Shown piece after piece: positions 41,319 to 55,491 of a stretch of DNA of 64,000 nt; the stretch's first letter is position 1; each line of letters opens with the position of its first letter. Location: the NCBI GenBank assembly GCA_025352225.1, contig JANXTT010000160.1:1-64000 (forward strand), read 5' to 3'. The notes under the pieces were generated by a model. That model searched no databases, was not told where the DNA came from, and was given only the letters and a program-made list of their open reading frames with translations. Source of the stretch: Mucilaginibacter sp. (GTDB lineage: Bacteria > Bacteroidota > Bacteroidia > Sphingobacteriales > Sphingobacteriaceae). Made by a program: the position numbers and the translations under genes.

Positions 41319-41545
41319 TAGTTTCCGTTATATATATCACCGGAGCTGTTAATAAAGGCTTGCGGGCATTATTCATGTTTCATTTTTTGAAAACTAAACC
41401 TTTTTACCTATCTTTAAGCACCATTTATAAGCCAACCCTAAGATTATGGTATTTTACAAAGCAGGCTAACGCTTTTTTAGTTAAATGGCGATGTTTATAA
41501 AGCACATTTGCATTAACAGTGTTATTGGGGCCGACCAATTTTTAT

Positions 41546-44329
41546 ATGTACTATAAATCCCCTTCTGGTATAAAGCAAAAATACAGCATAGTTATTTGTA
41601 TTGCCCTATTAACACTGTTAGTTAGGTATAACGGCTATGCACAAAGCTTAGGCGACCCTATTGTTAATATTACATTTGGTGCAGGCACAGGCCAATTTGC
41701 AGGATCGTTACCTGCCGATTCAGGATCTACCACTTATACGTATATTAATGGCACCCCAAGTGATGGCTTATATACAATTGCTAACTCAACCAACGGAATG
41801 TATACTGGCTGGTGGCGAACTTCGGACCATACCGGAAACCCGGGTGGCTATATGATGATAGTTAATTGTGACTACGCCCCAGGTATATTTTATACTCGAA
41901 AAGTAAAGGGCTTATGCGGCAATACGAAATACCAGTTTGCCGCATGGATTAAAAATTTATTAAATTATGTTGGCAAACCATCTAATATCAAGTTTTCTAT
42001 CGAGACAACCAACGGAGTCCTCCTGGGCTCTGACAGTACAGGTATTATCCCCTTAAAGGATGAATGGAAACAATATCCTTTTACTTTTAGTACACCTGCA
42101 GGCATAGATAGTATTGTTATTAAAATGAATAATATTGCCCCGGGAGGCAATGGTAATGATGTTGCTATTGATGATATCACTTTTAGGCCTTACGGCGACC
42201 CTGTAGCTGTAGTTTTTGATAAGGCAACAACCCAAAGCATCTGCGCGGGTAGCCCTAAAACAATTAACATTAATCCTACAACTACTCTTTCTACAGGCTA
42301 CGCGCTTAAGCTTCAGCAGATGATAAACGGGGTTTGGACAGATCAGGGAACACCATTTACAAACTCGGCGGCTAGTTTTTTATCGCCAACCGCCGCAGGT
42401 ACATATAGTTACCGGGTTGTATCGGCCCTGGCAGGCAATATAGCTGCGGCACAGTGTGTAGTGTCGTCAAATATACTAACCTTAACAGTTGCGCCTTTGC
42501 CCGATACAACCTTTACCGCGCCGGCTAAAACTTGCCTGGGTGATTCGACTTTTTTTACCGCTCCTGCAGAGCCAAGCGGCACTATTTGGCTATGGAATTT
42601 TGGGGATGGGGGCACGTCTGCCAAGCAAAACCCAGCTCATTTATATTCATCGCCCGGCGATTATACCGTAATGCTAACCGTTACCAATGCAAGCGGCTGC
42701 CCTTTAACCGGAACAAAAAAGATACACATCGCTAAGCTCCCCACCGCAAAATTTACCTATTCATCGCCGGACTGCGAAACCCGTGCAGTAATATTTACGG
42801 ATCTGTCGGCGCCCAACGAAGGCATAATTACAAAATGGGTGTGGGACTATGGAGATGGTAGCTTGCCAGACATCCGTACAGATAATATTAAACCATTCCA
42901 GCATACTTATACACCCGGCTCATATACAGTAAAGTTATCAGTTACCAACACCAATGGCTGCTTATCAACGGCAACACAGTCTTTTATAGTTAGCCCACTC
43001 CCCGTAGTTGATTTTATTTTGCCAGCCGCATGCGTTTCTGATAAGGTAACGTTTATAGATAATTCAAAAATAAGTGATAATTCGGAGAGTAGCTTTACCT
43101 ATTTATGGAACTTTGGCGACGCTGCAAACGCAACACCTGCAAATCCAAATACATCAAATTTAAAAAACCCAACACATAAATATAATACCGCATCAACCTA
43201 CCCGGTTAGCCTTACTATAACCTCAAATAACAATTGCGCGGTTACCACAACTAAAACATTTATTGTAAATGGTGCTACCCCTGTTGCCAACTTTGCCGTA
43301 TTGAATCCAAATACGTTATGCAGCAACAGAGAAGTTTATTTTATTAATAATTCTTCTGTCGACTTTGGGAATGCCACCAGAATTGACTGGTATTTTGACA
43401 TGATCAATAATCCCACTGTAGTGGTAACAGATAACAGCCCGTATCCTGGCAAACAGTATCGCCATACCTATCCGGAGTTTCATAGCCCGGCTTCAATTGA
43501 CTATACCGTACGAATGGTGGTTTACTCAGGTGCCATATGCTTTTCACCCAAGTTAGATCAGGTTATAACCTTGCGTGCAACACCCCACTTAACATTTAGT
43601 ACCCAATTACCCCTTTGCCAAAATAATGCACCGGTGCAGCTATCGGTATTGGAAGACAGCGGTATACAAGGCGGGGGTATATATTTAGGCACGGGGGTAA
43701 ATACTACTGGATTATTCGACCCTGCGGTTTCGGGCTCGGGAACGTTCCCCATCAAATATATTTACACAGCCAGCACTACCGGTGCTTGCGCAGATACAGT
43801 AAGCCAGAATATTGTGGTAAATCCCTATCCCCAAATAAACGCAGGTAGTGATATTACGATACTGGCTGGCGGGGCTTCGCAATTGCATGCTACTACTACA
43901 AGCAATGGCAATCTAACTTACTCCTGGTCTCCGGCCAGCGGGTTAAGCAGCACATCCATACCCAATCCAATTGCCTCACCCGCTATAAATACAACATATA
44001 CGTTAACTGCAACAAATAGTAATGGGTGCAGTGCAACAAGCAAGGTTAATGTGGTTGTATTACAAGCACCCACAGTACCCAATGCCTTTACCCCTAATGG
44101 CGACAGTATTAACGATGTGTGGAAAATATTATACCTTGATACCTATTCGGGTTGTACAATTGAAGTATTTAATCGCTCAGGTAAAAAGGTATTTTCGTCA
44201 ATAGGATATCCCATTCCGTGGGATGGGAGGTTCAATGGCGCTGATCTGCCTGTAGGCGTATACTATTATATTATTAATCCGAAACACGGGCGGAGTATGA
44301 TATCAGGTTCGGTAACTATAATACGGTAA
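41546..44329 (+). CDS. PKD-repeat protein with type IX secretion (type B) C-terminal domain
   Basis: This secreted protein of about 927 residues starts at ATG 41546 (MYYKSPSGIKQKYSIVICIALL, signal to NGYAQ); a GTG nine codons upstream is not needed. It has an N-terminal galactose-binding-like sandwich (about 25-220), an Ig-like segment, and three or more PKD domains (WNFGDGGTSAKQNPAHLYSSP, WDYGDGSLP, WNFGDAAN). The C-terminal tail is typical of gliding/T9SS type B substrates (FTPNGDSINDVWKI, ending VYYYIINPKHGRSMISGSVTIIR-like). It is exported to the surface by T9SS. The two protease genes follow. Confidence 0.88.
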   Translation: MYYKSPSGIKQKYSIVICIALLTLLVRYNGYAQSLGDPIVNITFGAGTGQFAGSLPADSGSTTYTYINGTPSDGLYTIANSTNGMYTGWWRTSDHTGNPGGYMMIVNCDYAPGIFYTRKVKGLCGNTKYQFAAWIKNLLNYVGKPSNIKFSIETTNGVLLGSDSTGIIPLKDEWKQYPFTFSTPAGIDSIVIKMNNIAPGGNGNDVAIDDITFRPYGDPVAVVFDKATTQSICAGSPKTININPTTTLSTGYALKLQQMINGVWTDQGTPFTNSAASFLSPTAAGTYSYRVVSALAGNIAAAQCVVSSNILTLTVAPLPDTTFTAPAKTCLGDSTFFTAPAEPSGTIWLWNFGDGGTSAKQNPAHLYSSPGDYTVMLTVTNASGCPLTGTKKIHIAKLPTAKFTYSSPDCETRAVIFTDLSAPNEGIITKWVWDYGDGSLPDIRTDNIKPFQHTYTPGSYTVKLSVTNTNGCLSTATQSFIVSPLPVVDFILPAACVSDKVTFIDNSKISDNSESSFTYLWNFGDAANATPANPNTSNLKNPTHKYNTASTYPVSLTITSNNNCAVTTTKTFIVNGATPVANFAVLNPNTLCSNREVYFINNSSVDFGNATRIDWYFDMINNPTVVVTDNSPYPGKQYRHTYPEFHSPASIDYTVRMVVYSGAICFSPKLDQVITLRATPHLTFSTQLPLCQNNAPVQLSVLEDSGIQGGGIYLGTGVNTTGLFDPAVSGSGTFPIKYIYTASTTGACADTVSQNIVVNPYPQINAGSDITILAGGASQLHATTTSNGNLTYSWSPASGLSSTSIPNPIASPAINTTYTLTATNSNGCSATSKVNVVVLQAPTVPNAFTPNGDSINDVWKILYLDTYSGCTIEVFNRSGKKVFSSIGYPIPWDGRFNGADLPVGVYYYIINPKHGRSMISGSVTIIR

Positions 44330-44402: not shown

Positions 44403-45830
44403 ATGTATAAACTTAAATTTTGCTGCATTTTATTTTTTTTGCTAGGTTTTGGTGATGGATTATATGCTCAGCAACATGCCCGCGGTATGGACGTTGATGA
44501 TCAGGCGTATCAAAAGGCACCAAAAAAAGCCCGGTTAACCCGCGCGCTTGATATATTGCCATCCAAGGCTTCTATAAAGGCTTATGCCCCTTATCCAAAA
44601 AGCCAGGAACAGTTTGGTACTTGTGCAGCATGGGCCAGTGCTTACTGCGGGCGTACCATGATTGACGCTATAAAAAACAACTGGACCGACAGAGATTTTA
44701 TTACCAAAAATGCGTATTCGCCCGCTTTCCTGTTTCGGCTTTTACGCCCGGATGATGGATCGTGCGTTGGTGGCTCTGTAATTGAATATGCTTTCCAGAT
44801 CATGAAAACCAAAGGAAGCATCCCATTCAATAGCTTGCCGGTTTTATGTGTGCCCAGTATAGATGAAACGCAGCTAGCTACCGCGGGGGAATCAAAACTA
44901 AAGGACTACGCCCGTTTATTTGATGTTGGCGCATCCGAAAGCTTTAAGATCCAAGCGGTAAAGAAATCCCTGTCAGAAAAAAAGCCGGTTGTTATAGGCA
45001 TGTTATGCCCCTCTTCTTTTGATTACGCTGTAAACTGCTGGCAGCCAACTGAGCAGCCATTAAGCTCATTAGGAGGCCATGCCATGTGTGTTATTGGCTA
45101 TGACGATGAGCAATATGGTGGCGCATTTGAAATTCAAAATAGCTGGGGTTTAAACTGGGGTAATAAAGGCTATATCTGGATTAAGTATAGCGATTTTGCC
45201 CGGTTTGTAAAATATGCATACGAGTTTGTTGATTTGCCAGATGTTAAACCAGATGTGCCTGACTTGGCGGGCGCGGTTAAATTGGTGCTTTCTACTGGCG
45301 AACAAATGCCGGTTAACCTATTGGTCTCAACCCGGGGATTAAAGGTAGTTACGGCGGCGTCTACTAATCAACCGCTTACCATTTACAGAACGGCCGATTC
45401 TTATAATTCAGGCACTAATTTCAGAATTTATATCTCCAATAATCAACCGGCGTATGTATACGCCATCAGTTCTGACCTGAGCAACCAGGTAACCAAAATA
45501 TTCCCTTACGACGACAATACCAGCGCGGCCCTTACTTATAAAAAAAACGATGTAGCCTTGCCTGACGAAGATCACTATGTGCAGTTTGATAACCAAAGCG
45601 GGAAAGATTTTTTATGTGTATTATATAGCCGGAACGAGTTAAATATTAACGACCTGATTACAGCGATAGGTACTAAAGCCGGGACATTTAACCAACGGAT
45701 ATACAGTGTTTTAACCGATAAGATAACCGACCCTGCAAACATTACATTTAGTAGTGATAACATATCCTTTAAAGGAAAGACCAACGGAAAAGATATAGTG
45801 GCACTAATGGTTGAAATGGATCATAAATAA
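44403..45830 (+). CDS. Papain-like (C1) peptidase with DUF4384-like domain
   Basis: This 475-residue exported protein is best started at ATG 44403, giving a signal peptide (MYKLKFCCILFFLLGFGDGLYAQ); the frame could open at TTG 44364. The C1 fold is complete: Gln70 and Cys74 in SQEQFGTCAAWASAYC, His226 in GGHAMCVIGYDD, Asn246 in IQNSWGLNWG. After about residue 285 follows a DUF4384-like domain (FRIYISNNQPAYVYAIS, then KIFPYDDN). There is no obvious propeptide of papain type. It ends four bases before the caspase-like gene, so both are co-translated. Confidence 0.88.
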   Translation: MYKLKFCCILFFLLGFGDGLYAQQHARGMDVDDQAYQKAPKKARLTRALDILPSKASIKAYAPYPKSQEQFGTCAAWASAYCGRTMIDAIKNNWTDRDFITKNAYSPAFLFRLLRPDDGSCVGGSVIEYAFQIMKTKGSIPFNSLPVLCVPSIDETQLATAGESKLKDYARLFDVGASESFKIQAVKKSLSEKKPVVIGMLCPSSFDYAVNCWQPTEQPLSSLGGHAMCVIGYDDEQYGGAFEIQNSWGLNWGNKGYIWIKYSDFARFVKYAYEFVDLPDVKPDVPDLAGAVKLVLSTGEQMPVNLLVSTRGLKVVTAASTNQPLTIYRTADSYNSGTNFRIYISNNQPAYVYAISSDLSNQVTKIFPYDDNTSAALTYKKNDVALPDEDHYVQFDNQSGKDFLCVLYSRNELNINDLITAIGTKAGTFNQRIYSVLTDKITDPANITFSSDNISFKGKTNGKDIVALMVEMDHK

Positions 45831-45834
45831 AGAT

Positions 45835-48099
45835 ATGAACACAATTTACAAAATGCTTATTGTAATATTTGTATGCCTGCATGCTGTAGGCTTAAATGCG
45901 CAAAACTTACTATATTACAACAACTTTACTGTAGCGCAAGCGGGATGGAGGGATTTTGAGGATGATTTGAGCAAATCCAGAATTTCTGGCAGCCAATATA
46001 TTCTTACCCATAAACAGCATTCATCATCTGTAATGTCAAGTATTATCCCGGTTGATTATAGCCGCAATTTTGCCATTGAAACTACGGTTACACACCTTGA
46101 CGGCGACAATTTTCCAATAGGTATAACCTTTCAGGGACAAGATTCATTTAACCTCAATTATTTTGCAATTTCTCATACCGGGCAGTTTATTGTGGCTGCT
46201 TTTGAACAAGGCACAAGCAAAATAATTGTAAACTACACCGTTTCATCTGCTATACACCCAGGGTCGGAAGCTAATAAATTACGGGTAGAAAAATCTGACA
46301 ACCAGTTTAAGTATTTTATAAATAATACAGAAGTGGCTCACACCGCAGTTTTACAACGCTATGGCGATGCTATAGGTGTTTTAGTAGGCGGCCAGCAAAC
46401 AGCCGCGTTTGATTACCTCAAGGTGGCCTATACAAACCCGGTTGTTAACCATATCGAAAAAGCTGTTAAGGTAGTAAATACTGACATTACCGAAATGGCT
46501 TATCATACCGATTTTGAACACGACGACGAGAACGAATGGGTGCTACCGCCCACCGACTCGGTAAAGACAGCATTAGCTAATGGCCGTTTTACCATATCGC
46601 GCAGTGCAAAAGGTGGTTTTACAGCGTCGGTAACCGGCCTGAACACTAAAATAGACTTCCACCGCGATTATTTGATCGAAACATCTGCCATACATTATAG
46701 CGGTACATTAAATTACGGTTATGGGTTGGATTTTGATACCGATAGCATACGTCAGTACCATTTTTGGCTTGCCTCCGGGTATTATAGCATTGGTTACACA
46801 CATAACGGTGTATACAACAGTATGATCCCCTGGACGGAATCAGACGCGATTAATAAAACCGCCCTGAGCGCAAACAAGTTAAGCATAATGCACAAAGGCG
46901 GGCAGCTCAGCTTTTATATCAACGATCAACTGGCCACCACGTATCCCGAAACTAAACCTACCGGCCATCGGTTCGGGCTGTCTGTTAGCGCCAATCAAAA
47001 GGTAAGCTTTAAATATTTGACCTATGGTTATCTGGATAAAGCGTCGCATATTGAAGTGCCGGGCCAGGCCGATGTTACCCCTCCGGAAATAACCGTTATT
47101 TCGCCGCAGGTTACGCGTGGCTTAAAAGTGGTTCAAAGCAGCGATGTATTACATGTGGCTGGCATAGCCAAAGATGCCAGCGGCATATTTTCGGTAGTTG
47201 TAAATGGCATACAAGCCACTGTAGATAAAAGCGGGAACTTTATTGTTGATGTACCTATGGCTCTTGGCGATAATCCGCTGATGATAGTAGCTACCGACAT
47301 GAATATGAACAAGGGGACATATAAATTCAATATTGTACGTAATAATGTTCCGGTAAGCGCGCAAGCTACCATCACCCAGGCAGCATCGCATGGTAAGTTC
47401 TATGCATTGCTTATCGGCGTTCAAGATTATAAAGACCAAACTATTCAAAGTCTGGAAGGGCCTATAGGCGATGCTACTACATTATTGCAAGCATTGGCCA
47501 GCCATTACACTTTTCAATCTGAGGATATTACGCTATTGAAAAACCCCACAAGAGCTGATTTTTTCCATGCACTTGATGAGGTCTCCGGTAAAATAAAAAG
47601 CGAAGATAACCTGGTTATATTTTATGCAGGCCATGGTTTTTATGATGAGGGCCGGCACCAGGGTTATTGGTTTCCGGCTGATGCTGATCGCCAGCATAGG
47701 GATACATGGATATCAAACGCCGACCTGATAGATTACATTACCGCCATCAAATCAAAGCATACCTTACTCATTAGTGATGCATGTTTCTCTGGCAGCATAT
47801 TCAAAACACGATCTATTGAAATGGCGCCGAAAGATATACAGGAACTATATAAGTTACCCAGCCGCAAAGCCATGACCAGCGGAAACATGAAGGAAGTGCC
47901 TGATAAGAGTGTTTTTATGCATTATTTGGTGGAAAGGCTTAACCAAAACACAGATAAGTTTTTACCTGCTGAACAGCTTTTTTCAAGCTTTAGGGCAGCG
48001 GTTATCAATAATAGCCCCAATCAGCAAATACCCCAGTTTGGCGAAATCAGAGAATCGGGAGATGAGGGCGGCGACTTTATATTTATTAAGAAAGAGTAA
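45835..48099 (+). CDS. Caspase-fold (C14) peptidase with LamG-like and Ig-like domains
   Basis: The 754-residue exported protein (ATG 45835, signal MNTIYKMLIVIFVCLHAVGLNAQ) has two concanavalin/LamG-like beta domains (about 20-200 and 220-405) and an Ig-like domain (about 415-505). A C-terminal caspase domain follows: FYALLIGVQDYKDQ, His600 in YAGHGFYDEG and Cys650 in LLISDACFSGS. The dyad is intact, so it should be an active cysteine protease, probably with Arg/Lys specificity as in bacterial orthocaspases. The 45811 ATG overlaps the previous gene and is less likely. A terminator follows. Confidence 0.9.
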   Translation: MNTIYKMLIVIFVCLHAVGLNAQNLLYYNNFTVAQAGWRDFEDDLSKSRISGSQYILTHKQHSSSVMSSIIPVDYSRNFAIETTVTHLDGDNFPIGITFQGQDSFNLNYFAISHTGQFIVAAFEQGTSKIIVNYTVSSAIHPGSEANKLRVEKSDNQFKYFINNTEVAHTAVLQRYGDAIGVLVGGQQTAAFDYLKVAYTNPVVNHIEKAVKVVNTDITEMAYHTDFEHDDENEWVLPPTDSVKTALANGRFTISRSAKGGFTASVTGLNTKIDFHRDYLIETSAIHYSGTLNYGYGLDFDTDSIRQYHFWLASGYYSIGYTHNGVYNSMIPWTESDAINKTALSANKLSIMHKGGQLSFYINDQLATTYPETKPTGHRFGLSVSANQKVSFKYLTYGYLDKASHIEVPGQADVTPPEITVISPQVTRGLKVVQSSDVLHVAGIAKDASGIFSVVVNGIQATVDKSGNFIVDVPMALGDNPLMIVATDMNMNKGTYKFNIVRNNVPVSAQATITQAASHGKFYALLIGVQDYKDQTIQSLEGPIGDATTLLQALASHYTFQSEDITLLKNPTRADFFHALDEVSGKIKSEDNLVIFYAGHGFYDEGRHQGYWFPADADRQHRDTWISNADLIDYITAIKSKHTLLISDACFSGSIFKTRSIEMAPKDIQELYKLPSRKAMTSGNMKEVPDKSVFMHYLVERLNQNTDKFLPAEQLFSSFRAAVINNSPNQQIPQFGEIRESGDEGGDFIFIKKE

Positions 48100-48161: not shown

Positions 48162-48191
48162 AAAACACAGCCGATATAATGGCCGTGTTTT
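48162..48191. terminator. Terminator between caspase-like gene and lipoprotein gene
   Basis: AAAACACAGCC (48162-48172) and GGCCGTGTTTT (48181-48191) form an 11-base stem with one mismatch, A-rich before and T-rich after. It can serve both converging genes. Confidence 0.8.
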
Positions 48192-48956: not shown

Positions 48957-51900
48957 TTATTTCTTTATTATTTTAAAGGCCGTCTCTTTATTATCCGCCG
49001 TTAAATTCAGCATATATACACCGGGTACTAATCCCGATAGGTTAATCTCTACCACTCCAGACGCATTAGCGTAATTGCCCGAATAAACCAAGCGGCTATA
49101 CAAATCGTAAACATGGATGGTTGCAACCTTTATATTATCTTTCCCCAGGTTCACCTTTATAGTCGTTTCAAATGGGTTTGGATAAACCAGCTTATCATCA
49201 GAAATTACAATGTTTTCTGTAAATTCTCCCTGGCATAGTTTATCGGTACTAACCGAAATAGTGTTGCTTCCTTTGTTCAAAGTTAAGGTTAACTGGCCGG
49301 AGGTAGTTGTAATCGCCTTGCCGTTTAAACTTACATTATAAGCGTTTGATCCGCTCATTGATAATACTACCTGGTTAGTGCCTTTAATAGTTGCTGTATA
49401 AACAGACAGGTCTTTGGGCTCGGTTATTACTGCAATAAAGCATTGCTGGTAGGTGGGCTGCCCGGTTACGGTTAAACATACGTTATAAGTTCCGGCTGCC
49501 AGGTTATTAATTCGCACCGAATCTGTAAAAGTATAAGGTGTATTTAAACCCGTGGCGGTTATTGTTGCGGTATAGTTTAAATGTTGGGCGGCGGTTATAT
49601 TTATTGATCCGTTGCTGGTGCCTTTACAGGTAGCGCTCAAATCGCTAACTTTAAAATTGTTTGTTGGCAGGCCAAACATCACACTCATAACAGTAGCCGC
49701 CGATGTCTGTTGAAGGCCGTTAAGGCTGATACTTACCGTATACGACCCCGCTAAAGTAGCCGTATAGCTAGCATTGGTTGCTCCGCTTATATTTACACCA
49801 TCTTTAATCCATTGATAAGTATAACCAGTGCCCGGCATGGCTGTTAGCATAATGCTACCGCCCGAAGGAATACTTTTACTGCCGGTGCTTATGGTTGGTA
49901 CGGGTACATAGTTAAACCCCGCCAGCGTACCTGTTCCTAACGGTGTAGTTACACCTACATTTCCGTTACCACCCGCTCCAACTACAGCCGTTATACTTGT
50001 TGGCGAAACTAACGTAAAAGAAGTGGCAGCAACTCCGCCAAAACTAACGGCGGTTGTACCAGTAAAGTCAGTACCTGTAATGGTAACTGTTGTGCCGGCT
50101 ATTGCTGTGGTAGGGCTTACTGAAGTAACCGCAGGTGCCGATGGGTTAGTAACGGATGTGCCATTTTGAGAGACAGAGACAGTTTTTGTTATGTTGCCTC
50201 CAATAAGTGTAAGTGTTGCTGTACGCGCAGCCGAACCTGTATTTGCCGTTGCAGCAACAGTAAACGAACCATTACCGTTTCCACCTGTGGCAGATAAGGT
50301 GAGCCAGGTTTGATCGGCAGTTACCGTCCAGGTTTGATTAGCGGTTACTGTTAACAATTGCGAAGAAGCACCAGACGAGTAATTAAGGCTACCCGGCGAA
50401 ACAAGCAGAGAGGCTACTGTTGAGCCATACGCAATGCCCCGGCCCGCAGTACTAAGGTAAACCCGGCCATAAATATTTTTATCGCCCATTACAAATTGGC
50501 CATTAGCAGGGCCGCCATACTGGTGCGCGTCGTCATTTACACGAACCCAGGTTACCCCTTTATCTGTTGAACGATGTAAGCCTGTTACACCGCCCACTGT
50601 TCCCCAAATAAAAATAGTTTCGTAACCGCCTACAGTAAGGGCCTTGCCCATGCCCACGGCACTACAAGTGGTTACCCCGTTTATTTTTTGAAATGGAGTA
50701 GCACCGCCATCTTCGGTGTATGCTAGGCCCCCGTTATATAAGGCAACCCATACAGTACCTTCTCTGCCAGGGATAGTCCTTATTATTCGTGAACCATAAC
50801 TATTTGTACTATTAGCAGCGGCATTAAATGATACACCTCCATCGGTACTCACCATTAAACTGCCATCATTATTATTATAGGCATAAAATTTGTTTGAATT
50901 TGAGCCATCGGCAACTGGCCGGGCGTTATTGATATTAAGCCCGGTTACGGTAGTCCAGGTTGAGCCATTGTCGGTTGAGCGGTAGGTGGTAGTAGAGTTG
51001 TCCGGGCAATGTAATAGTACACTTCCATCTGCTGATAAAGCCACCTGCCCACCTGTACCCTTTAATACGGCAACTTTTGTCCAGGTTATACCCTGGTCAT
51101 TTGAATAATACATCGAGCCACCTACACGTACTAATTTATTGCTGTTGTTTACCGCATAATCTAACCCGCCGGTTGATCCCATTCGTGGGTTATGTATAGG
51201 TGCATATTGTGCCGCGTCTGTATGCCTGAAACCATCATAATCGCCAATAACAGAAAAAAACGGACCGTTTTTAATGCTTATAATATTGAGCGGAACGGTT
51301 TCTTCGAGGCCTTTAACATTAAACTTCCAAATGCCTGCACTAGCATTAATATCCTCATTTACATATAACCCATTACCCGATACTACATATACTTTATTTG
51401 TATTTGATGGATCAAACTCAACACAAGCCGCCCAATGGATAGACTGCCCCGGTACCCATGTAATGCCATTAGCATCTACACTAAAACCCCTTGCTACAAC
51501 ATCTGTCCAGTTTGAACCGCCGTCTGTAGAATAATAGATCTTATCGCCATAAGTAGAACCGTATTGCAAATCGTAAGTATTGGTGGTAGAGGCTACTAAA
51601 CGGCTAGGGTTATTAGGGTCAACACTAATACCGCAATAAGCTTTGTTTACCCGGCTAGCTCCTGATAGTGGTGTGATATTGGTCCAGGATCCATCGGCAA
51701 GGGTGTATTTCCATATCTCCCCTGCATTACAAGGTTCGGCGGTTGTGCCATAAGGGCCGGAGCCATTTGCATAAGTGATAAATAATGATGCATTATTGCC
51801 AGATAACACGGCCCTCAGAGGCATTAAACCCGCGCCCAGATTAGGATTGATCAACGCTGAGAAGGTTGAGCCGCCATCTTCGCTTTTGTACAAGTTATTG

Positions 51901-52604
51901 CTGCTGCCTGTGCGGGATATTCCGGCAAATATTCGTTGCGTAGTGCCGCCAGAAGCGCTTGATTTATCCAGTACAACAAAACTTATTCCGTTGCCATTAG
52001 CCGTAGTAGTTACATTAAGCGAAGAAACATTGCTCCAGGTAGAGCCCGAGTTTGTACTTTTAAATAAACCATTTGACTGGGTTCCGCAATATAAAACAGA
52101 ACTGTTGTTTGGGTCAACCTGCAGCTTTTCGCCGGTACCCCGCCCAAGCGCGTTCCCGTTGATCTTAAATTGAGAAGTAACATCGGTAACTGTAAATGTA
52201 GCACCGTAATCGGCAGATCGCATAATATAACTTTTACCGCCATTAAAATAAGAGATACCTGCCGCGATATAAACAATACTAGGCGATAGCGGATCGGTGG
52301 CCAAAGATTGTACGCCTAAATACCCTTGAGTGTTTTCGCTGGCAAAATCTACTAATGGTATCCATTTGCTATTTGCTATGTCCCATCGATAGGCTCCGCC
52401 CACATCGGTGCGCGCATACATCAGCCCGGGCTGGGTTTTACTGGTAATAATACCCGATACAAAGCCGCCACCCCCAATGGCCACATTGCCCCAGCTATAA
52501 GGCTCTGTTGTTTGCGCCTTAGCAACATTGGTACAAAACAGATAATACATACATACCTGTAAAATTATTATAGCTCTACAGTTTACTGATAAAAGTTTTC
52601 TCAT
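48957..52604 (-). CDS. GH74-like xyloglucanase with BACON, IPT and T9SS domains
   Basis: This secreted protein of about 1215 residues starts at ATG 52604 (signal ...NVAKAQ). Residues about 35-740 form the double seven-bladed propeller of GH74, with the catalytic-type Asp in MYARTDVGGAYRWD, Asp-box-like repeats (YSTDGGSNWTDV, YSNDQGITWTKV) and a late Asp in VRVNDDAHQYGG. Next come a BACON domain (SYSSG.. NQTWTVTADQTWLTLSA), an IPT/TIG domain (VTSVSPTTAIAGTTVTITG), further Ig-like repeats, and the T9SS type A sorting tail (LVYPNPFET...). It probably cuts xyloglucan outside the cell. Confidence 0.88.
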   Translation of the reverse strand: MRKLLSVNCRAIIILQVCMYYLFCTNVAKAQTTEPYSWGNVAIGGGGFVSGIITSKTQPGLMYARTDVGGAYRWDIANSKWIPLVDFASENTQGYLGVQSLATDPLSPSIVYIAAGISYFNGGKSYIMRSADYGATFTVTDVTSQFKINGNALGRGTGEKLQVDPNNSSVLYCGTQSNGLFKSTNSGSTWSNVSSLNVTTTANGNGISFVVLDKSSASGGTTQRIFAGISRTGSSNNLYKSEDGGSTFSALINPNLGAGLMPLRAVLSGNNASLFITYANGSGPYGTTAEPCNAGEIWKYTLADGSWTNITPLSGASRVNKAYCGISVDPNNPSRLVASTTNTYDLQYGSTYGDKIYYSTDGGSNWTDVVARGFSVDANGITWVPGQSIHWAACVEFDPSNTNKVYVVSGNGLYVNEDINASAGIWKFNVKGLEETVPLNIISIKNGPFFSVIGDYDGFRHTDAAQYAPIHNPRMGSTGGLDYAVNNSNKLVRVGGSMYYSNDQGITWTKVAVLKGTGGQVALSADGSVLLHCPDNSTTTYRSTDNGSTWTTVTGLNINNARPVADGSNSNKFYAYNNNDGSLMVSTDGGVSFNAAANSTNSYGSRIIRTIPGREGTVWVALYNGGLAYTEDGGATPFQKINGVTTCSAVGMGKALTVGGYETIFIWGTVGGVTGLHRSTDKGVTWVRVNDDAHQYGGPANGQFVMGDKNIYGRVYLSTAGRGIAYGSTVASLLVSPGSLNYSSGASSQLLTVTANQTWTVTADQTWLTLSATGGNGNGSFTVAATANTGSAARTATLTLIGGNITKTVSVSQNGTSVTNPSAPAVTSVSPTTAIAGTTVTITGTDFTGTTAVSFGGVAATSFTLVSPTSITAVVGAGGNGNVGVTTPLGTGTLAGFNYVPVPTISTGSKSIPSGGSIMLTAMPGTGYTYQWIKDGVNISGATNASYTATLAGSYTVSISLNGLQQTSAATVMSVMFGLPTNNFKVSDLSATCKGTSNGSINITAAQHLNYTATITATGLNTPYTFTDSVRINNLAAGTYNVCLTVTGQPTYQQCFIAVITEPKDLSVYTATIKGTNQVVLSMSGSNAYNVSLNGKAITTTSGQLTLTLNKGSNTISVSTDKLCQGEFTENIVISDDKLVYPNPFETTIKVNLGKDNIKVATIHVYDLYSRLVYSGNYANASGVVEINLSGLVPGVYMLNLTADNKETAFKIIKK

Positions 52605-52852
52605 AATATTTAATAGCTTGTATCTTGGTTTTAACATCCCATTAATTGCATAGCAGTTTTATGCAGCGGTGTAATAATAGCTGTTGCATAAAAGTTTATA
52701 CTATTACGGGCTTGTAAAAGTTTCTTTTCTACAAATTTAGCTTTAAATAAAGGGAGATATGTGCAATTATAGGGTAACAAATGTTAACATTTTACCCCAT
52801 AATTCTCGTTTTTATAAAAAGTAACGACTAAAAACAGATGTTTATTAAATTG

Positions 52853-54315: not shown

Positions 54316-54888
54316 TTATCTGTACAAACCCTTGCTTTCAATAAATTTCAAAACGGTGTCGGGTACAAAAAACTGCACGTTTTTCTTTTGAGAGATGGAT
54401 GTACGGATAAACGTTGCCGAAAGCTCCATTAATGGTGTCATTGTAATACTTACAGACGGGTGTGTAGCCAGGTCGGTGTTTTCATAACCGGGACGGGGGT
54501 AAACATAAATGCGGTAATCACGCAGAATAAGCTTATAGTTTTTCCATTTATGTAACGATACCAGATTGTCCGATCCCATAATAATGGCAAACTCATGTTC
54601 GGGATATTTCTCTTTCAGATGGGTTAATGTATCAATAGTATACGAAGGTTGTGGTAATTTTAACTCCACATCGCTTACTTGTATATTATCGCTATTATCT
54701 GTGGCCAGTTTAGCCATTTCAAGCCGATCATAAGTGTTGATCAGATCGCCGTATTTTTTCAAAGGGTTTTGTGGTGATATCACCAGCCAAACTTTATCCA
54801 GGTCGGTATGGTTTGCCATGTAGTTAGCAATGATCAAATGCCCGATATGCACAGGATTAAAGGACCCAAATAATAAACCTATCTTCAT
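54316..54888 (-). CDS. nadD: Nicotinate-nucleotide adenylyltransferase
   Basis: NadD adenylates nicotinate mononucleotide in NAD synthesis. The 190 residues show the nucleotidyltransferase motif GLLFGSFNPVHIGHLIIAN (HxGH), WLVISPQNPLK, FAIIMGSDNLVSLHKWKNY and the ISATxIR-like ending ELSATFIRTSI. It follows gmk by 30 bases. Confidence 0.97.
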   Translation of the reverse strand: MKIGLLFGSFNPVHIGHLIIANYMANHTDLDKVWLVISPQNPLKKYGDLINTYDRLEMAKLATDNSDNIQVSDVELKLPQPSYTIDTLTHLKEKYPEHEFAIIMGSDNLVSLHKWKNYKLILRDYRIYVYPRPGYENTDLATHPSVSITMTPLMELSATFIRTSISQKKNVQFFVPDTVLKFIESKGLYR

Positions 54889-54918
54889 TCCCCTCCTTTC
54901 CCCGTAAAGGAAAACGAA

Positions 54919-55491
54919 TTATTTTTTTAAAAAATCAATTACTAACTGTTTTGCCTCTTTGCAAGCCGTTTCAAGATCGTAATTTTTTAGGATGATATCA
55001 AATTGCGGAGCATAATTTAGTTCTTTTTCTGCTTTTGCAAAACGTTCCTTCAATTTTTCGGGGCTATCGGTTCCTCGGCCGGTTAAGCGTTCCTTCAAAA
55101 CGTCAAGAGATGGGGGCTGTACAAATATTGCCAGCGCGTGTTCTTCGTATTTTCGCTTTAAATGCAGGCCGCCTTCAACGTCTATATCAAATATCACATG
55201 TTTGCCACTATCCCAAATGCGTTGTATCTCTGAGCGGAGCGTGCCATAAAAAGTTCCGGAATATACCTCTTCAAACTCAACAAATTGTTTTTTAGCTATC
55301 CGGTGTAAAAACTCTTCGTTAGATATAAAGTAATAATCAATACCATTTCTTTCATCGCCCCGCGCCTCCCTGGTTGTTGCCGAAATAGAAAATGCCAGAT
55401 CGTTAGCCAACTGCCCCAATAAATAATGTACGATAGTTGTTTTACCGGCTCCTGATGGGGCAGAAAATATGATGAGTTTCCCTTGGGTCAT
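54919..55491 (-). CDS. gmk: Guanylate kinase
   Basis: Gmk phosphorylates GMP to GDP. The 190 residues carry the P-loop FSAPSGAGKTTIV, SISATTREARGDERNGIDYYF, FVEFEEVYSGTFYGTLRSEI and VIFDIDVEGGLHLK. It lies between yicC and nadD in the same direction. Confidence 0.97.
   Translation of the reverse strand: MTQGKLIIFSAPSGAGKTTIVHYLLGQLANDLAFSISATTREARGDERNGIDYYFISNEEFLHRIAKKQFVEFEEVYSGTFYGTLRSEIQRIWDSGKHVIFDIDVEGGLHLKRKYEEHALAIFVQPPSLDVLKERLTGRGTDSPEKLKERFAKAEKELNYAPQFDIILKNYDLETACKEAKQLVIDFLKK

Follow-up and report, generated by a model that had tools for sequence, protein, structure and literature searches.

Why are two cysteine proteases of different clans, both apparently exported, encoded side by side in a bacterial genome? 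The pair lies in a 64,000-nucleotide stretch of Mucilaginibacter sp. (GenBank assembly GCA_025352225.1, contig JANXTT010000160.1, positions 1 to 64,000; hereafter the window, meaning the whole stretch analysed), where gene B, for a caspase-like protein, starts four bases past the stop of gene A, for a papain-like protease, both on the + strand. Our survey of other genomes shows that exported papains of the A type nearly always have a caspase gene as neighbor, and A and B very probably form one functional module. As to how the two would work together, a proteolytic cascade between them is plausible on sequence grounds, and the likeliest single mechanism would be a relay in which the caspase cuts and activates the papain, to which we assign a probability of about 0.38. 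The features of the two genes are as follows.

44403 to 45830, + strand: gene A, exported papain-like protease with a C-terminal DUF4384 domain, 475 amino acids (Pfam matches; conserved in linked loci)
44403 to 44468, + strand: putative Sec-type signal peptide of A, residues 1-22, ...LYA-QQ, end set by eye (hydropathy heuristic)
44541 to 44543, + strand: Arg47 codon of A, proposed activation cut site of pro-A, KKARLTR↓ALDILP (conservation in linked papains; cathepsin K alignment)
44547 to 45257, + strand: papain catalytic domain of A, about residues 49-285, His226 and Asn246 intact (Pfam; cathepsin K match; alignment)
44622 to 44624, + strand: catalytic Cys74 codon of A (alignment)
45399 to 45635, + strand: DUF4384 domain of A, residues 333-411 (Pfam)
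45835 to 48099, + strand: gene B, exported caspase-like (C14, paracaspase-related) protein, 754 amino acids (NCBIfam, PADLOC, PDB and MALT1 profile matches; alignment)
45904 to 46449, + strand: first LamG-like region of B, boundaries approximate (sub-threshold 3keto-disac_hyd)
46507 to 47049, + strand: second LamG-like region of B, boundaries approximate (sub-threshold 3keto-disac_hyd)
47083 to 47343, + strand: Ig-like domain (Glucodextran_B) of B (borderline match; region aligned in 23 caspase rows)
47395 to 48096, + strand: caspase domain of B, with the His600 codon at 47632-47634, the Cys650 codon at 47782-47784, aligned S1 acids Asp546 and Asp648, and Arg659 (alignment; profile)

The central evidence for a module is the conservation of the pair. 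For the window's family, a set of 301 genomes was used, sampled evenly from a larger group; relatives of A occur in 38 of these genomes and relatives of B in 46. The exported papain-DUF4384 type itself occupies 12 loci in 11/301 genomes (window included), and at 12/12 of these a caspase gene lies on the same strand within 134 bases. Among the weaker family matches L013-L030 and L041-L060, L013's locus was the one followed with long flanks. A scan of genome contigs added five loci, three of which carry DUF4384 and come from metagenome-assembled genomes titled Bacteroidales, Chlorobiota and Thioploca; in these three, the caspase comes first and the papain second. The other two had no DUF4384 match and were counted among the comparison papains. 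In a phylum set, 88/395 genomes gave matches, from which 40 stretches were fetched as a sample (20 from among the strongest places and 20 weaker ones). These contained ten new exported-type loci, eight with an intact same-strand caspase at gaps of 0 to 2,775 bases, the largest gap, in G422, enclosing two frames. The remaining two are L102, whose neighboring caspase-like gene has no catalytic His, and L093, which has no caspase; PF00656 finds none elsewhere in the L093 genome, although this Pfam model also misses B.

Altogether, an intact same-strand caspase within 2.8 kb accompanies 24/26 exported papain-DUF4384 loci, compared with 1/35 other papain loci (Fisher p = 1.3e-13; p = 1.8e-6 for the ten phylum loci outside the search profile; both values ignore phylogeny). 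The comparison loci consist of a second papain-DUF4384 clade (0/10) and papains without DUF4384 (1/25, the single case being L098, on the opposite strand), L112 having been dropped because it has no papain frame. These counts rule out that papains in general are linked to caspases. The functional coupling of the two proteases that had been proposed from the sequence alone is thus well supported by conserved linkage, also in the genomes titled Chlorobiota and Thioploca, and the possibility that the pair is found only here is contradicted by its recurrence in other genomes. The pairing in distant bacteria suggests a protease relay in the cell envelope.

Nine papains of the second clade (L078, L079, L084, L085, L095, L096, L097, L099 and L100) have no caspase in the fetched stretch. 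Most members of this clade begin with a glycine-rich stretch and a membrane helix, the helix being predicted in the two tested; L101 departs from this pattern and also has Ser in place of the catalytic Cys. In L078, L079, L084 and L085, the papain stands behind the same kind of gene, of which the L085 copy matches DinB/YfiT bacillithiol transferase.

Matches were found in 13/72,556 plasmid records, two of which, both from Persicobacter, cover over 80% of the query; the annotated Persicobacter record lists no caspase, and the other carries no annotation. A viral collection contained 260 relatives, and among the best 80 of these only the match of L126 (IMGVR_UViG_2509601030_000018) covers most of both domains. 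This contig holds a papain cut by the contig end, a caspase-FGE protein, a lipoprotein-like gene, a second caspase, a small DUF4384 protein and a CHASE2-cyclase. It is listed as viral; by eye it reads like a stretch of bacterial chromosome rather than virus genes.

Could both proteins be active enzymes? By its sequence, A is a papain (C1) protease with an apparently intact active site and predicted activity. Pfam Peptidase_C1 matches it above the cut-off (E = 7.9e-11, 42.9 bits against 20.7), and the DUF4384 module anticipated by the sequence-only reading was recovered above its own cut-off (E = 1.2e-9). The catalytic Gln-Cys-His-Asn set (Q68, C74, H226 and N246) is invariant in 18/18 aligned papains and is common to A and the cathepsins, and the best solved relatives of A are cathepsin K chains. 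While the usual C1 form has a large inhibitory pro-domain, A has a short pre-domain region of ~25 residues, and it further differs from the cathepsins in its C-terminal DUF4384 and its caspase neighbor.

In the same way, B is a caspase-like (C14) protein, apparently closest to the paracaspases, with a predicted intact active site and predicted activity. The His/Cys dyad of C14, which B has in common with MALT1 and the metacaspases (C14B), is invariant in 23/23 aligned caspases (H600 and C650). A profile of 20 B-type caspase domains has MALT1 as its best match (E = 1.3e-19) and metacaspase-1 as the next (7e-10); B alone matches metacaspase-1 in the PDB (E = 0.0046) and the generic caspase model of PADLOC (E = 3.9e-14), in a scan of single proteins that gave no match for A. 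Pfam PF00656 has no match in B and none in its whole own genome, which leaves B outside C14 as Pfam delimits it; relatives of B in the same alignment reach this model. Against NCBIfam caspase_w_EACC1, B scores 73.2 bits (E = 1.9e-20), under the family cut-off of 140. It therefore falls outside the EACC1-associated bacterial caspases (NF047832), with which it shares a modular build and whose systems are reportedly intracellular. In front of the caspase domain, the Ig-like domain named by the sequence-only reading holds up, at the borderline (27.5 bits against a cut-off of 27), whereas the two LamG-like domains proved weaker than stated, since 3keto-disac_hyd covers the two stretches with 18.6 bits against 26.8.

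The alignment also bears on what B might cut. Its residues D546 and D648 align with the S1 acids of MALT1 (Asp365 and Asp462, whose letters were identified in the alignment by motif position rather than by numbering) and of TbMC2 (Asp95 and Asp211), so that, by alignment alone, B has the acidic S1 pocket of the C14 branch with basic P1 preference. In MALT1 and TbMC2, these acids are described as setting that preference (PMC4357240; PMC6426788), and the C14 enzymes other than animal caspases that have been characterized so far are described as cutting after Arg or Lys (PMC5756287). The aligned acids are therefore a point in favor of an Arg-specific B.

Where would the two proteins act? Export was called with a simple hydropathy heuristic for Sec-type signals, which predicts such a signal at the start of A and B, in 48/51 caspase rows and in the 26 rows of the exported papain clade. 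We found no C-terminal domain of the type IX secretion system (T9SS; CHU_C or Por_Secre_tail type) in A or B with Pfam and NCBIfam, although the PKD gene upstream has one. T9SS export of either protein is thus unsupported, and Sec export to the periplasm would be the simplest reading. The description of two neighboring exported cysteine proteases, four bases apart and with intact catalytic residues, accordingly stands as far as coordinates and invariant residues go, with export resting on the heuristic.

The pair in the window is small compared with other loci of its kind. In G021, a single strand (326940-351350) carries a papain, nine caspases, a CHASE2-like protein and a small exported protein; G029, G260 and G046 have four, two and one caspases, respectively, and the same two last genes, with identities of 46-73%. 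The one scanned protein of the CHASE2-like kind in these loci matched CHASE2 just under the Pfam cut-off (25.3 against 26.3), and a weaker relative in G252 matched nothing. The small protein behind the CHASE2-like gene (L070:6299-7084, L072:4431-5249, L073:18738-19559 and L209:8941-9741) has 261-273 amino acids and a hydrophobic start; it may resemble a FecR-like domain, and two scanned copies had no Pfam match.

In a second array form (G279:C2, G261 and G422), three to six caspases of greater length follow one another, with WD40 repeats shown in one of them and inferred for the others of its cluster. Across loci, the front ends of the caspases are LamG-like, TPR, WD40 or MORN. In six arrays, the mean identity of the fronts is 22-55% and that of the caspase ends 46-90%, a comparison that included seven of the nine G021 caspases and the L077 array without papain. 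The Ig-like domain scored above the cut-off in 4 of 12 scanned caspases and below it in another 4; the WD40 form, L083 and the two L126 caspases gave no match to it. Both His and Cys are present in 46/51 caspase rows, the others being four truncated rows and L102. Some members are broken: L080 has a split caspase gene, and L074:8440-8820 is a 126-residue remnant just before the papain, in which the signal peptide runs straight into the end portion of a caspase, as would follow from loss of the region between them. Array members seem to be gained and lost.

How might the two enzymes be connected? We propose that a conserved protease module works outside the cytoplasm and that A and B are its simplest version. 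In it, B would be an Arg-specific, paracaspase-like sensor protease, whose swapped front (here, the two LamG-like domains) would bind a periplasmic or surface signal and so free the caspase domain. The active caspase would then cut the short pro-peptide of A after Arg47, at a site of the form x-L-T-R↓A/S/G (LTR↓S-type), and so release the mature papain, the shared effector at the end of the chain. Larger forms may have one papain serving up to nine caspases with different fronts, plus the CHASE2-like membrane protein.

The site itself is conserved. Because of the short pre-domain region, and because residue 59 of A aligns with residue 10 of cathepsin K chain 1atk_A, the mature end of A is expected near residue 50, and Arg47 lies three residues before it. 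This Arg is invariant in 14/14 caspase-linked papains of the first alignment, where G28 and R47 are the only invariant residues between the signal peptide and P53. In the larger comparison, Arg occupies this position in 22/24 caspase-linked papain-DUF4384 rows and in 0/12 rows without an intact caspase, and it is absent from both exported papains that have no intact caspase. The direction from caspase to papain is favored because exported papains are rarely found without a caspase, whereas B-type caspases may occur without a papain in the fetched stretch (L076, L077 and L083). We also considered covariation between the papain site and the Arg659 loop of the caspase; the KTR↓S and LTR↓S motifs are alike, but they show no joint change, and the idea was dropped.

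Several observations weigh against this relay. Both exported papains without an intact caspase sit on long branches, and two linked papains have no Arg at the position (L094 and one of the two in L091). In 9/10 second-clade papain-DUF4384 rows, a Lys precedes the LP-type border by 3-5 residues, and a Lys/Arg-specific caspase could cut at this Lys as well; Arg is present at the aligned column in four papains with neither DUF4384 nor caspase (L114, L121, L123 and L125). Moreover, an Arg at the border could suit any trypsin-like protease. The ten second-clade rows form one group on the papain tree, and, with Arg and linkage labels assigned by hand from locus and alignment data, the association between Arg and linkage amounts to a single independent contrast if only well supported branches are counted and to 3 over all branches, which is too few. 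Finally, the AlphaFold models are too poor for structural support: from four-row alignments, the predicted local distance difference test (pLDDT) reached 47.9 for A (the DUF4384 part being higher, with blocks mostly at 70-87) and 37.2 for B, and a PDB fold search with the model of A gave no match at E = 0.001.

Because the Lys residues of the second clade and the four Arg residues in DUF4384-less papains make the Arg evidence less specific, we lowered our estimates both for the relay and for its most elaborate version. The latter would be an extracytoplasmic zymogen cascade from caspase to papain, with arrays of diversified sensor caspases all feeding into a single papain effector and, in the larger forms, a CHASE2-type membrane receptor taking part, as a periplasmic counterpart of initiator-to-effector cascades; we consider this version doubtful.

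How do other explanations fare? Both proteases could work in parallel on a shared target outside the cytoplasm and leave each other uncut, their fronts aiming the caspases at different targets. The fronts do resemble binding modules, A and B both look exported, and cross-cleavage is proposed from a candidate site; however, this view accounts neither for the near-constant caspase neighbor of exported papains nor for the Arg conserved where pro-peptide and mature enzyme meet, and we consider it somewhat unlikely. The order of events could also be reversed, with papain A cutting B, or each caspase of an array, and thereby releasing or activating the caspase domains as the effectors. One papain per array would suit a common activator, but the B-type caspases found without a papain speak against it, and the conserved Arg site in A would be left unexplained, papain-type sites in the caspases not having been searched for; we regard this order as rather unlikely. 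The module might instead be an immunity or cell-death device, in which the caspase fronts recognize attack or envelope damage, the papain kills the cell or the attacker, and the arrays diversify by conflict. The patchy distribution in the family set, the diversified fronts with conserved ends, the broken members of L074 and L080 and the PADLOC match of B would fit such a device, although this match is to one generic caspase model and an exported system would be poorly placed to sense cytoplasmic phage DNA; this appears quite improbable. That the two are passenger neighbors without a joint role, as a variable preceding gene might hint, is very improbable and already contradicted by the survey, given linkage at 24/26 loci in both gene orders.

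Around the pair, two further features were mapped.

41519 to 44329: PKD/CHU_C gene upstream of A (Pfam)
48162 to 48191, called on the minus strand: terminator-like stem after the pair, between convergent genes (consensus match only)

The sequence-only reading had placed the pair behind a T9SS PKD surface protein. The gene is real, but its link to the pair is not conserved, since the gene before the module differs among the five loci compared, being PKD/CHU_C in the window, ispG in the two nearest relatives (G279 and G264), a sugar transferase in G260 and a pyridine-nucleotide oxidoreductase in G021. The genome position of the module is therefore not fixed, and the PKD protein was ruled out as a conserved part of it. 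In G264, the PKD homologue is on contig C86 and the papain-caspase pair on C55; the ispG of the window's own genome is on contig C49. Two loci speak against this rejection: G229 (cluster c22), with a PKD/CHU_C-like fragment ~7 kb past the module, and G141, where a large T9SS-type gene adjoins it. T9SS-type genes are common in these genomes, with 20 match rows in G279 alone. Elsewhere in the window, a minus-strand protein of 1226 residues (48957-52637) seems, by eye, to combine BNR-like repeats with a T9SS-like tail. The minus strand also has two tandem frames of equal length, 190 amino acids (54316-55491).

How much of this is new? A survey of prokaryotic metacaspases describes caspase operons, some with several caspases and also in Bacteroidetes, and 23 of the operons with other proteolysis domains, and extracellular roles of bacterial caspases have already been suggested there (PMC3501461). 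Its operons have at most three caspases, whereas up to nine stand by one papain here, and its operon section names no papain-caspase module, though single cases may be in its tables. B-type caspases are set apart from MALT1 and the metacaspases by their signal peptide, swapped binding fronts and tandem arrays beside a papain. Gingipains (C25, clan CD) are exported by the T9SS. They are Arg proteases activated by cuts at Arg (PMC4357240), and a gingipain zymogen is one protein whose pro-domain has autoprocessing sites, whereas two genes are involved here. We found no description of the papain-caspase module in a search of the open-access PubMed Central literature; as far as this search goes, the families are known singly, and the module, the arrays and the proposed relay are undescribed.

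For the question of what exported bacterial caspases cut, one conserved gene group here offers a partner together with a candidate for the substrate and another for the cut site, which makes the question testable with two purified proteins and one point mutant. If the relay is true, up to nine caspases with swapped fronts by one papain would represent a many-sensors-one-effector design outside the cytoplasm.

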